NCBI GenBank assembly: GCA_027083135.1
Contig: JALWQH010000053.1
Span: forward strand, 1-34,885
Direction of reading: 5' to 3'
Length of the DNA: 34,885 nt
Source: Desulfurococcales archaeon
Lineage (GTDB): Archaea > Thermoproteota > Thermoprotei_A > Sulfolobales > WAQK01
Numbering within the stretch: position 1 is the first letter of the stretch; each line of letters begins with the position of its first letter. The notes below the pieces were generated by a model. It made no database searches. It saw nothing but the letters and a program-made list of their open reading frames with translations, and was not told where the DNA came from. A program made the position numbers and the translations under genes. Positions 15,561-31,321 of this stretch are shown piece by piece.

Positions 15561-16146
15561 GGCTGGCCTGCACTTCCACTGTGACCTGTTCTGCTAGTTC
15601 CCTAATAAGATGGGTTCTCCGAGCCCATCTAATAATCCCTGCAATATGCTTCTCATTTACGCCTGTAAGCCTCGCCAATATTCGGGGAGGCGGAGGGCCT
15701 TCCTTCACAGCCATGCATACATAGTAGGCTATAGCCAGCTTGACTCTAAGGGTGCGGGATGAGAGCCTGGGATAATTATCCATCAGTGTTAACGCCCTCT
15801 TAACGCATGGATGCCTGGAGACAATAGTGCTCATCAGCCTGGAGGTGTCTCTACGAACATATATTCTAACATGCCTATGCTGATCCACGTATAGCTTCAA
15901 TGCATCATTATTTATCACGTATCCAGGCTTGGTTTTCCTAAGCACTCTGAGAGCCTCTCTAATTCCATGCTTGCTGGGGGGAGCCGTGGCACCATGCCTT
16001 ACAACGCCCTCTTGAAGGGATGTGCTCCTAGAAGCCTCGTATATCTTGCCTACTACGCAGCCGCAGTCGCCGCATACTATGTCGCCTGATGAGTAGTCCC
16101 AGATAATGTTCTTCGAGCCGCAGCACGGGCATCTGAGATCCCCCAT
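15505..16146 (-). CDS. Short TFB-like protein with N-terminal zinc ribbon
   Basis: The first ~35 residues form a TFIIB-type zinc ribbon: CPCCGSKNIIWD...IVCGDCGCVVG. The remaining ~175 residues hold a degenerate B-finger/linker zone and helical, cyclin-like segments (LYVDQHRHVRIYVRRD, RTLRVKLAIAYYVCMAVKEG, PRILARLTGVNEKHIAGIIRWARR) and end in a basic tail. At about 213 residues it is some 90 short of a normal TFB with two cyclin repeats, so it is a divergent or truncated paralogue rather than the main factor. The longer ATG at 16176 sits inside the gene's own TATA box (16177-16185), so I use the ATG at 16146. The tail overlaps the DUF504 gene by 56 bases. Confidence 0.78.
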   Translation of the reverse strand: MGDLRCPCCGSKNIIWDYSSGDIVCGDCGCVVGKIYEASRSTSLQEGVVRHGATAPPSKHGIREALRVLRKTKPGYVINNDALKLYVDQHRHVRIYVRRDTSRLMSTIVSRHPCVKRALTLMDNYPRLSSRTLRVKLAIAYYVCMAVKEGPPPPRILARLTGVNEKHIAGIIRWARRTHLIRELAEQVTVEVQASREEKHHKKRADTCAVEQG

Positions 16147-16176
16147 AGTGTCCACGGTTCCCCAGGGGGGAATCAT

Positions 16177-16185
16177 ACTATAATT
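16177..16185 (-). promoter_or_regulatory. TATA box of the TFB-like gene
   Basis: ATTATAGTA on the minus strand predicts transcription from about 16155, only 9 bases before the ATG at 16146. It excludes the upstream ATG at 16176 as a start. Confidence 0.55.
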
Positions 16186-16250
16186 GTTGGAGCAGGCTAC
16201 TAGTGTGGGGGAGGGGGTGGGGGCAGGGTAAAACTATTCCGCGGCCTAAG

Positions 16251-16262
16251 AGTTAATTAGTA
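16251..16262 (+). promoter_or_regulatory. TATA element of the second proteasome beta gene
   Basis: AGTTAATTAGTA lies about 36-47 bases before the ATG at 16298, giving a leader of about 15 bases that contains the GGTG/GTGATGGGG ribosome-binding stretch. Confidence 0.45.
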
Positions 16263-16297
16263 TCCTTTGCTTCCAGTCTAGGTGTAAGTGATGGGGT

Positions 16298-16906
16298 ATG
16301 ACGGGGTACAATGTCTACGGTATGGGGGCAACTACCGTCGGCATAAAGGCAGCGGATGGAGTTGTTCTAGCCTCGGAGAAGAGGGCTAGCTATGGAGGAT
16401 ACATTGTAAGTAGAAGTGCTAGGAAGGTTTTCGCCATTAATGATAGATTCGGCATAGCTTGTGCAGGGCTTTTCGCCGACATGCAGGCTATAAGCCGTAT
16501 GCTTAAAGCTGAGATAAGCTACTATGAGGTGGAGCTTAAGAGGAGGATGAAGGCATCTGCCGCTGCTAAGCTTCTAGCCAACATATTGTACTCATATAAG
16601 CTTATGCCGCTGCTTTCAGAGACCCTTTTCGGAGGGGTGGATGAGGAGGGGCCCCACCTCTTCGTCATGGATCCACTGGGATCCATGATAGAGGATAACT
16701 ATGCCTCTGTAGGCTCAGGCGCCCCCATAGCCATAGGCTTGCTTGAAGCCAGGTATAAGGAGGATCTAGGCGTGGAGGATGCTAGGAGCCTGGCAGTAGA
16801 GTCTATAAAAGTTGCTGTGGAGCGGGATGCTATATCGGGTGATGGCATAGATTTGCTGGTAATCACGCCTAGAGGTGTAAGGGAGGAGACCCTCCCCCTA
16901 GGGTGA
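16298..16906 (+). CDS. Proteasome beta subunit paralogue lacking catalytic Thr1
   Basis: A 202-residue proteasome beta fold protein. When aligned by its VGIKAADGVVLASEKR strand, the residue in the Thr1 position is Ala11 (MGATTVG), whereas the sister subunit at 6561 has GTTTVG. The Lys33 counterpart (SARKVF) is kept, and Glu replaces Asp17. If processing occurred at the usual place the N-terminus would be Ala, so the subunit is predicted to be inactive or structural, as described for one of the two beta subunits in several Crenarchaeota. The rest (GLFADMQAISRM, GSGAPIAIG, DAISGDGIDLLVI) is intact. Its stop overlaps a GTG (GTGA) that probably begins the endonuclease V region. Confidence 0.93.
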   Translation: MTGYNVYGMGATTVGIKAADGVVLASEKRASYGGYIVSRSARKVFAINDRFGIACAGLFADMQAISRMLKAEISYYEVELKRRMKASAAAKLLANILYSYKLMPLLSETLFGGVDEEGPHLFVMDPLGSMIEDNYASVGSGAPIAIGLLEARYKEDLGVEDARSLAVESIKVAVERDAISGDGIDLLVITPRGVREETLPLG

Positions 16907-17594
16907 AGATAACACGGGGTTCGATTACTCTAGGGCTAGGAGAGCGCAGGCACTGCTCTCCAAGAAGGTTTCCTTCAGCGATGAGTTTGGGCCTATACGT
17001 AGGGTTGCAGGGCTGGACGTCTCCTACTTTAAGACTCCTGGGGGGATGTGCGGTGTTGCTGTGGCAGTGCTCCTCGAATACCCCTCTATGAGGCTTATCA
17101 AGTACGGCTATGCATCCGCCCCTCCCCCCATCCCCTACGTGCCTGGATTCCTCGCCTTTAGGGAGGCCCCCCTCCTCCTTAAAGCATGCCTCCCCGTATG
17201 CGGAGAAGCGGATCTCCTTGTGGTTGACGGTCACGGAGCTTCTCATCCTAGAGGCCTCGGAATAGCCAGCCATATTGGAGTAGTGTTAGATAAGCCTAGC
17301 ATAGGTGTGGCTAAGAAGAGGCTGGCGGGAGGAGTAGTAGAGTCGGGCGGTGAGATGCTCCTAGTACTGCATGGACAGGTGGTTGGGGTTCTGCTTAGAG
17401 TGAGGGGGCGCAGCCTCTACGTCAGCACGGGTCATAGGGTTTCACCTAGAACTGCAGGCAGACTTGTGGAGAGGATGATGCGTGGAGGCAGGTTGCCCGA
17501 GCCTACGAGGATTGCTGATATGATCTCACATGAGCTTGTATCCAGGCTTAGGTCTTCTCACTGCACCCGCAGAAGCGGCGAAGAACAGCCTTAA
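16903..17594 (+). CDS. nfi: Endonuclease V (5' end needs a frameshift or unusual start)
   Basis: Endonuclease V cleaves near deoxyinosine in DNA or inosine in RNA. The ATG-initiated frame (17046-17594, 182 aa) contains YVPGFLAFREAP, LLVVDGHGASHPRGLGIASH, KPSIGVAKKRL and PEPTRIADMISHEL but lacks the first catalytic Asp. That Asp (codon 17016-17018, AGLDVSYF) and the preceding family helix (FDYSRARRAQALLSKKVSF) are coded in the same frame from 16902 to 17045, where no ATG, GTG or TTG exists. A GTG at 16903, overlapping the proteasome stop, is in another frame; one extra base in the GGGG run at 16916-16919 would join the two. So the gene has a frame disruption, a sequence error, or a non-standard start. 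Its 3' end overlaps the converging DUF357 gene by 47 bases. Confidence 0.85.
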
Positions 17595-18252: not shown

Positions 18253-19042
18253 GTCTGCCTCCAATCATGTGCACCCTTACTGCTTCCTCCTCAATGAAAT
18301 GCATCTTGCCGGGAACTATAAGCATGTGGGGTGGGGGAGGAAGGCACTCACAGCTCTTCAGCTCAGAGAAGCGTCCTGCAACCAGCTTCTCCTCACTAAA
18401 CCCTATTCTAGCAAGGCCTATCGCCACTGTGTCTCCGCTTACCACCCCCTCCCCCCTCATATCCTCAACCCTGAGGAGCAGCTCCACAGCCTCCCCCACG
18501 CTCATACCCTTCCCATCCTCCCTGACGTCAAGGTAGAAGAGCGTGTGAAGCCCCCTCACCGCATTCTCCTTCAACACGTCGTAGGGATACTCTGAGACTA
18601 TTCCGTCCCTAGGGTAAACTATGGTGGCGGACTTGCCGAACTTGTAGGCGAATAGGCCTGAAGCCGAAATAGCGGCGCAGTGTGCTGAGACCCCGTAGAT
18701 TATTCTGACACTGTATCCTCGCCTAACAGCCTCCAACCGCAGGGCGGCATGAGTCGTGGCGATCATTGGGTCACCGATCACGGCTAGGGCTGGGTTTAAC
18801 CCCTTCTCCAATGCTGAAAATATCTTGGCGCCGCTCTCATCCTCTATGTCCCTCCTAGAAAGTATTATGGGATGCTTACCGGCGATCTCACCCACCTTTT
18901 CAGGAGTCCACGGTGATCCAGGAACGGTGTAGTGTTCGAGGAACACCACATCTGATCCTCTAAGAGCATCCTCCGCAGCCCTGGTCAGATACTTAGGGGT
19001 TAATCCCAGTCCAACCAGGTAGAGCACAGGCTTCACGGCCAT
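18239..19042 (-). CDS. dph5: Diphthine synthase
   Basis: SAM-dependent methyltransferase that builds diphthamide on elongation factor 2. The 267-residue tetrapyrrole-methylase-fold protein starts LYLVGLGLTPKYLT and shows VVFLEHYT, IIGDPMIATTH-like AVIGDPMIATTHAAL, IIYGVSAHCAAISASGLFAYKFG, TLFYLDVRED and GDTVAIGLARIG, all typical of Dph5. The ATG follows AAAGGATGA. It lies 27 bases downstream of tRNA-Lys on the same strand and overlaps the DUF357/RibL gene by 14 to 26 bases. Confidence 0.95.
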   Translation of the reverse strand: MAVKPVLYLVGLGLTPKYLTRAAEDALRGSDVVFLEHYTVPGSPWTPEKVGEIAGKHPIILSRRDIEDESGAKIFSALEKGLNPALAVIGDPMIATTHAALRLEAVRRGYSVRIIYGVSAHCAAISASGLFAYKFGKSATIVYPRDGIVSEYPYDVLKENAVRGLHTLFYLDVREDGKGMSVGEAVELLLRVEDMRGEGVVSGDTVAIGLARIGFSEEKLVAGRFSELKSCECLPPPPHMLIVPGKMHFIEEEAVRVHMIGGRRGEA

Positions 19043-19063
19043 TCATCCTTTAAGGACTGTGTG

Positions 19064-19146
<83 letters not shown>

Positions 19147-19179
19147 TAGGAGCCTCAAAAGCAAGAATAGCATAACTCT

Positions 19180-19188
19180 AAATTAAGC
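19180..19188 (-). promoter_or_regulatory. TATA box of tRNA-Lys
   Basis: CTTAATTTA on the minus strand lies 35-43 bases before the tRNA 5' end, like the spacing at tRNA-Ala. Confidence 0.45.
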
Positions 19189-19254
19189 ACTGCGGTGGAA
19201 GCATAAATGAAGCCAGCCTGCATCGAGGAGGAGCGGTCATCGTATTAAGCATAC

Positions 19255-19269
19255 GCGAAAAATTTATTA
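19255..19269 (+). promoter_or_regulatory. BRE/TATA promoter of the RNA polymerase operon
   Basis: GCGAAAAA (BRE-like, 19255-19262) followed directly by TTTATTA (19263-19269) is the strongest-looking promoter in the window. Transcription would begin near 19292, leaving a 31-base leader before rpoH. It presumably drives rpoH-rpoB-rpoA1-rpoA2-rpl30e-nusA. Confidence 0.65.
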
Positions 19270-19322
19270 TTGCATGCTGTATGAGCCGTTTCCAGTGCAC
19301 CCCCCAATAAGGTTGAGTCTCC

Positions 19323-19565
19323 ATGGTTACAAGGTTTAATGTTTTAGATCATGAATTAGTCCCCAAGCATGAGGTGCTGAAGCCCTCGGAGGCAGTAGAG
19401 GTGCTTAGAAAGCTAGGCACAACGCCCGACAAGTTGCCCTGGATACGTGCATCCGACCCTGTAGCCAGGGCTATTGGAGCGAAGCCTGGGGACATTGTGA
19501 AGATAACTAGGCGGAGCCCCACAGCAGGGGTAAGCATAGCATACAGGTTTGTGATAGCAGGGTGA
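19323..19565 (+). CDS. rpoH: RNA polymerase subunit H (Rpb5-like)
   Basis: An 80-residue protein equal to the C-terminal domain of eukaryotic Rpb5. Hallmarks are [49 protein letters not shown] and [12 protein letters not shown]. It is the first gene of the polymerase operon and ends 5 bases before rpoB. It sits on the jaw of RNA polymerase. Confidence 0.97.
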
Positions 19566-31206: not shown

Positions 31207-31321
31207 GCCGGGGTGACCGAGCGGCCTAAGGTGCCGGCCTTGAGAGCCTCCTAGCTTCATGGACCAGGTGAGCCGGTGCCCCCTGCGGGGCGCGCGGGTT
31301 CGAATCCCGCCCCCGGCGCCA
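31207..31321 (+). tRNA. tRNA-Ser(UGA) with a 26-base anticodon-loop intron
   Basis: Acceptor stem GCCGGGG/CCCCGGC, anticodon stem CCGGC/GCCGG with loop CTTGAGA after splicing (anticodon UGA), a long variable arm GCCCC-CTGC-GGGGC typical of class II tRNA-Ser, T arm GCGGG-TTCGAAT-CCCGC, discriminator G at 31318 and encoded CCA at 31319-31321. The intron falls after position 37, at about 31245-31270; the exact ends are ambiguous because AG occurs at both junctions. Flanking GCCT/AGGT pairing fits a bulge-helix-bulge substrate. Confidence 0.93.

Follow-up and report, generated by a model that had tools for sequence, protein, structure and literature searches.

The endonuclease V gene and its leader

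The DNA analyzed here, referred to as the window, is a 34,885-nt stretch belonging to a 1.75-Mb metagenome-assembled archaeal genome of 57 contigs (G000; the window is its contig C53). On the forward strand, a proteasome beta subunit gene (16298 to 16906; Pfam PF00227, E = 5e-55) is the upstream partner of a gene for endonuclease V (EndoV; 16914 to 17594, 226 codons plus stop), and this gene order is kept in about 20 of the 30 relatives examined. The EndoV product matches Pfam family PF04493 (E = 2.1e-56) over profile positions 3 to 197 of 198, which is the whole domain, and EndoV entries in the PDB with values down to 1.6e-42. The GLD aspartate and the PYxPG, FRE, and DGHG motifs are all present; their columns are invariant in an alignment of 25 orthologs, and the alignments with PDB EndoV entries agree. 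The gene occurs once in the genome and the rest of it is intact. It is like other members of the family in fold, catalytic residues, and length; the start codon alone is unusual.

The EndoV frame is open from position 16902, just after an in-frame TAG (16899 to 16901), to the stop codon at 17592 to 17594. Within the leader, CTAGGGTGAAGATAACACGGGGTTCGAT, six open codons (GGT GAA GAT AAC ACG GGG) stand ahead of the conserved TTC. The original prediction was that this enzyme has no usable start codon before its first catalytic residue, and a codon list bears this out: ATG, GTG, and TTG are all absent from 16902 to 17045. The first ATG of the frame (17046 to 17048) lies downstream of the catalytic aspartate codon GAC (17016 to 17018; alignment column D39, invariant in the 25-sequence alignment) and is an implausible start. 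It was also correctly noted that a GTG at 16903 to 16905 overlaps the proteasome stop codon in another frame and that one additional base in the GGGG run at 16916 to 16919 would join the two frames.

The proteasome stop codon, TGA at 16904 to 16906, overlaps a GGTG Shine-Dalgarno (SD) motif (16902 to 16905) inside the hexamer GGGTGA. In this genome and in a sister genus (G001), the frequency of GGTG peaks 6 to 8 nt upstream of starts, whether ATG, GTG, or TTG; for the ATG starts of this genome, the counts at 6, 7, and 8 nt are 38, 27, and 15, respectively, over a background of 2 to 7 per position. Measured from the GGTG at 16902 to 16905, the only in-frame codon within 6 to 8 nt is the ACG at 16914 to 16916, at 8 nt. 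We propose this codon, overlooked in the original prediction, as the EndoV start. Prokaryotic start codons do not normally include ACG, and as far as we know it is absent from those listed in NCBI table 11. The bases 6 to 8 nt upstream of the GTG at 16903 are CCCCCT, which is not an SD; since this GTG lies within GGTG and lacks an SD of its own, it is best read as a component of the SD and not as a start. A pattern search of the genome for the 16S 3' end gave no match.

Four options had been offered for the missing start: a sequence error, a recent inactivating deletion, a frameshift used in expression, or a CTG or ATA start. The last comes nearest, but the codon is the ACG at 16914; initiation at the CTG at 16953 or the ATA at 16995 would remove conserved sequence.

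Two further features of the window were recorded. A perfect 6-bp inverted repeat (GGGAGG-AGAC-CCTCCC, 16881 to 16896) occupies the final proteasome codons a short way 5' of the SD, and an over-long tRNA gene at 31207 to 31318, with an Rfam match and no ARAGORN match, probably contains an intron.

EndoV leaders across the order

Comparison with relatives had been put forward as a check on whether the enzyme begins at the first ATG. The stretch F[DN]xxRAxxxQ...GLDxSY, which lies before 17046, is coded in every one of the 29 other orthologs that were compared within the order; none starts at the equivalent of 17046 and none lacks the upstream part. Position 17046 is therefore not a credible start. 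Nearly all of these orthologs start at ATG, GTG, or TTG 1 to 5 codons before the conserved F. One (L025) begins ATG GGC TTC GAT TAT, matching ACG GGG TTC GAT TAC of the window codon by codon. In two relatives from the same family (G001 and G002), the EndoV ATG falls one codon later than the ACG, at the GGG position (codon −1). From the proteasome stop to the F, the window and both of these relatives alike have 16 nt, and therefore no inserted base is called for.

Two further named archaeal EndoV loci lack a canonical start close to the conserved N terminus. In a metagenome-assembled genome (MAG) of the genus Pyrolobus (locus L212, genome G181), EndoV is 49% identical to that of the window and its first canonical start comes only at codon +28. 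The leader of this gene, TAGGGTGAAAACGCCACGAGGATATTCTTCGAC, has GGTG, 8 nt, and ACG, overlapping the proteasome stop in GGGTGA as in the window, and its GTG stands in the same frame relation to EndoV. A congener of this MAG (G019) has ATG at exactly the ACG codon (L009; ATG AAG TTG AGT TTT GAT). In the second locus (L208, Sulfolobales SKYB66), AGGT is followed after 8 nt by an ACG four codons before the F. From the frequency of ACG in such leaders, the chance of finding it in all three is about 5e-5. All three EndoV genes with ACG come from MAGs.

When 214 genomes of the order were scanned for GGTG-ACG ahead of a sequence resembling the EndoV N terminus, EndoV itself was matched in G000 and G181 only, so the arrangement is rare; the remaining pattern matches were not EndoV. 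Separately, two near-identical proteasome-EndoV contigs of one Staphylothermus MAG (L231 and L232) differ in having ATG versus ATA two codons before the EndoV F.

Near-cognate codons at SD distance elsewhere in the genome

Codons lying at least 4 codons ahead of the first canonical start were scored for GGTG at 6 to 8 nt in 949 kb of G000. ACG ranked first of all codons (3/31) and CTG second (4/94), with an overall rate of 1.0%. The near-cognate class was enriched (P = 1.2e-4, or 2.9e-4 without EndoV), on small counts and with the grouping of ACG with CTG chosen after the data had been seen. At offsets of 0 to 2, 12 to 14, and 16 to 18 nt, the same 949 kb gave no near-cognate enrichment of GGTG. 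Applied to the sister genome G001, the test likewise gave no enrichment (ACG 0/116; class P = 0.42).

Two genes besides EndoV carry ACG at SD distance. A VWA-domain membrane protein gene (L130:10195) has GGTG-6-ACG, and its ACG aligns with the ATG of homologs in G001, G002, and G007, each of which has GGTG 7 to 8 nt before that ATG. The other, a gene of 129 codons (L155:5492), has GGTG-7-ACG; its homologs align from residues 1 to 3, and the next canonical codon lies 25 codons downstream.

CTG is the candidate start of the genes for TldD, PmbA, a protein with a T2SSF domain, and a RIO kinase, and the CTG of PmbA aligns with the ATG of a homolog. Similar candidates are ATA in a fumarase gene, ATT in that of a HEPN protein, and ATC in that of a DppB-like permease. 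Some of the CTG, ATA, ATT, and ATC candidates are weaker, having a canonical codon 6 to 8 codons on. Several other seemingly startless genes were rejected as shadow frames or as having a canonical start a few codons inside.

Individual loci among these deserve description. TldD and PmbA are neighbors (L156:7619-10353, on G000:C2), both without a canonical start at the place predicted from the SD and both with GGTG, 7 nt, and CTG; the CTG of PmbA overlaps the TldD stop as CTGA. The T2SSF-domain protein (L056, minus strand, 18557 to 19438) has GGTG, 7 nt, and CTG, with no canonical codon for 41 codons. The DppB-like permease (L147, minus strand, 15853 to 16827) has GGTG, 7 nt, and ATC, and its next canonical codon (+17) would cut a conserved N-terminal domain.

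Explanations for the leader and their meaning

At the EndoV locus, no canonical start preserves the N terminus, ACG stands at the SD spacing of the genome, and ACG in this position recurs beyond chance (L212, L208, L130, and L155). We consider it likely that EndoV is intact and translated from the ACG at 16914, placed by the SD, within a wider low-frequency use of near-cognate codons. In this genome, ACG, along with some CTG and ATA, ATT, or ATC codons, probably serves as a genuine but rare start codon guided by the SD.

The main rival to initiation at ACG is loss of the start by mutation or error, in which 16914 once held ATG and a T-to-C change (a recent mutation, a minority strain allele, or a consensus error) turned it into ACG, leaving EndoV near-silent or leaky. 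ACG is one change from ATG, a recent event would spare the SD and the rest of the frame, as found, and minority alleles can become fixed in MAG assemblies. However, the same ACG, at the same place and SD spacing, is present in a second genus, with a third lineage also having ACG, and the genome holds two more genes with ACG and some seven candidates with other near-cognate codons. The condition of the assembly also bears on this point. When sister-genome proteins were compared with G000 DNA, one frameshift was flagged in 224 genes, and it was discarded as overlapping a tRNA-Pro gene (L047). A larger set of 284 genes (86,774 amino acids) gave one frameshift flag, which looks like a noncoding shadow frame, and seven stop flags, among them one that precedes the real start, two isolated stops in stretches of poor conservation, and three with several stops each that look like wrong-frame alignments. 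We thus found no raised rate of broken frames, with 0 convincing frameshifts in about 220 to 280 gene comparisons. Had random errors been common enough to hit some ten start codons among roughly 800 genes, many more frames than this would be broken, and with so few candidate disruptions among the 284 genes, none convincing on inspection, random damage at such a rate is unlikely. Start loss is accordingly an improbable account of the locus, though the strongest of the rivals.

The original prediction favored a single missing base, by error or real deletion, in the GGGG run at 16916 to 16919, with the GTG at 16903 as the start. A GTGA overlap of this kind commonly couples genes, and MKITRGFDYS, the N terminus that joining the frames would give, is plausible. 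This reading fares poorly against the evidence above: the GTG has no SD at 6 to 8 nt and is itself part of one, it stands 6 codons before the F while the start in most orthologs is nearer, at 1 to 4 codons, and the stop-to-F distance equals that of family relatives with no indel. Furthermore, the same layout and frame relation are found in a second genus, in the independent assembly containing L212, and the gene comparisons revealed no convincing frameshift in the present assembly. We regard a lost G as unlikely.

Still less probable is another noncanonical codon, such as the GGG at 16917, or editing of ACG to AUG in the RNA. G001 and G002 begin exactly at codon −1, in agreement with GGG, but this codon is 11 nt from GGTG, beyond the 6- to 8-nt peak. 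We know of no archaeal editing system of the ACG-to-AUG kind. In plant chloroplasts, such editing is known (PMC9845219) and likewise concerns ACG at the start of conserved genes, but it needs a C-to-U editing system. Least probable of all is a programmed −1 frameshift, with translation beginning at the GTG at 16903 and reaching the frame of EndoV in no more than about 6 codons. The frame relation is common to the window and L212, and archaea offer one precedent (fucA1 of Saccharolobus solfataricus [PMC8211752]). However, 16903 to 16925 has no slippery X-XXY-YYZ heptamer, the downstream structure is not unusually stable (z = −0.76), the GTG has no SD and no counterpart start in L208, and the equivalent GTG of the VWA gene runs straight into TAA. 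Like EndoV of the window, fucA1 is an archaeal gene without a simple start-to-stop frame, but it has a slippery heptamer and overlapping open reading frames in mid-gene, neither of which is present here.

Returning to initiation at ACG, we envisage that the GGTG overlapping the proteasome stop would position the ribosome on the proteasome-EndoV message and bring the ACG, which alone among the in-frame codons is suitable, into the P site. Initiator Met-tRNA would then decode ACG as methionine through a middle-position mismatch, giving (M)GFDYSRARRAQ. From the sequence we infer both initiation at this codon and insertion of methionine, as one instance of what may be low-frequency near-cognate initiation (ACG, CTG, and some ATA, ATT, or ATC) in this vent-type Desulfurococcales/Pyrodictiaceae relative. 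In an E. coli reporter, ACG initiation reached about 0.1 to 1.5% of that from ATG (PMC6925171). The initiation factor aIF1, the loss of which might have explained lax initiation, is present in the genome, and in S. solfataricus it is reported to favor canonical starts and discriminate against noncanonical ones (cited in PMC6237735). EndoV output is therefore probably low compared with that from an ATG, a level that may be tolerable or useful. A predicted stem at 16897 to 16934 pairs the SD (CCTAGGGTGA) with TTACTCTAGG at 16925 to 16934, so that ACG falls in the loop (z = −1.88); this hairpin was found in neither L212 nor L208, and hence we do not build upon it.

The arrangement resembles canonical SD-led archaeal initiation, as in Saccharolobus and Aeropyrum, in the GGTG-type SD at a fixed short distance, in serving a downstream operon gene, and in the overlap of the SD with the upstream stop. 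It differs in the codon: the canonical system uses AUG, GUG, and UUG, whereas ACG would be used here and CTG, ATA, ATT, and ATC elsewhere in the genome. A 2020 review of archaeal initiation gives AUG, GUG, and UUG only (PMC7531240), and starts in Aeropyrum are 52% TTG, 28% ATG, and 20% GTG (PMC5911459). No archaeal ACG start was found in a full-text literature search that covered few subscription journals. Eukaryotic and viral near-cognate initiation at ACG or CUG, such as the ACG initiation on Sendai virus P/C mRNA (cited in PMC9845219), involves the same ACG with one middle-position mismatch; those starts depend on scanning, while here the SD would place the codon. What is known, then, is SD-led initiation; what would be new is an unlisted start codon, ACG, in that role.

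We hold it to be an evenly balanced question whether, in hyperthermophilic Thermoproteota with strong GGTG SDs, ACG, CTG, and other near-cognates are genuine starts of about 1% of genes, with the EndoV ACG kept across genera, possibly holding the nuclease low, and with such genes truncated or dropped by gene callers blind to ACG. If the ACG reading is true, translation in these archaea can start at more codons than the ATG, GTG, and TTG of gene finders, and conserved genes would therefore be truncated or lost in annotation. It would also provide a natural test of how the SD and aIF1 jointly control start fidelity in archaeal, eukaryote-like initiation, in one gene and at one codon, and G019, the congener of the Pyrolobus-genus MAG with ATG in this position, would serve as its natural control.
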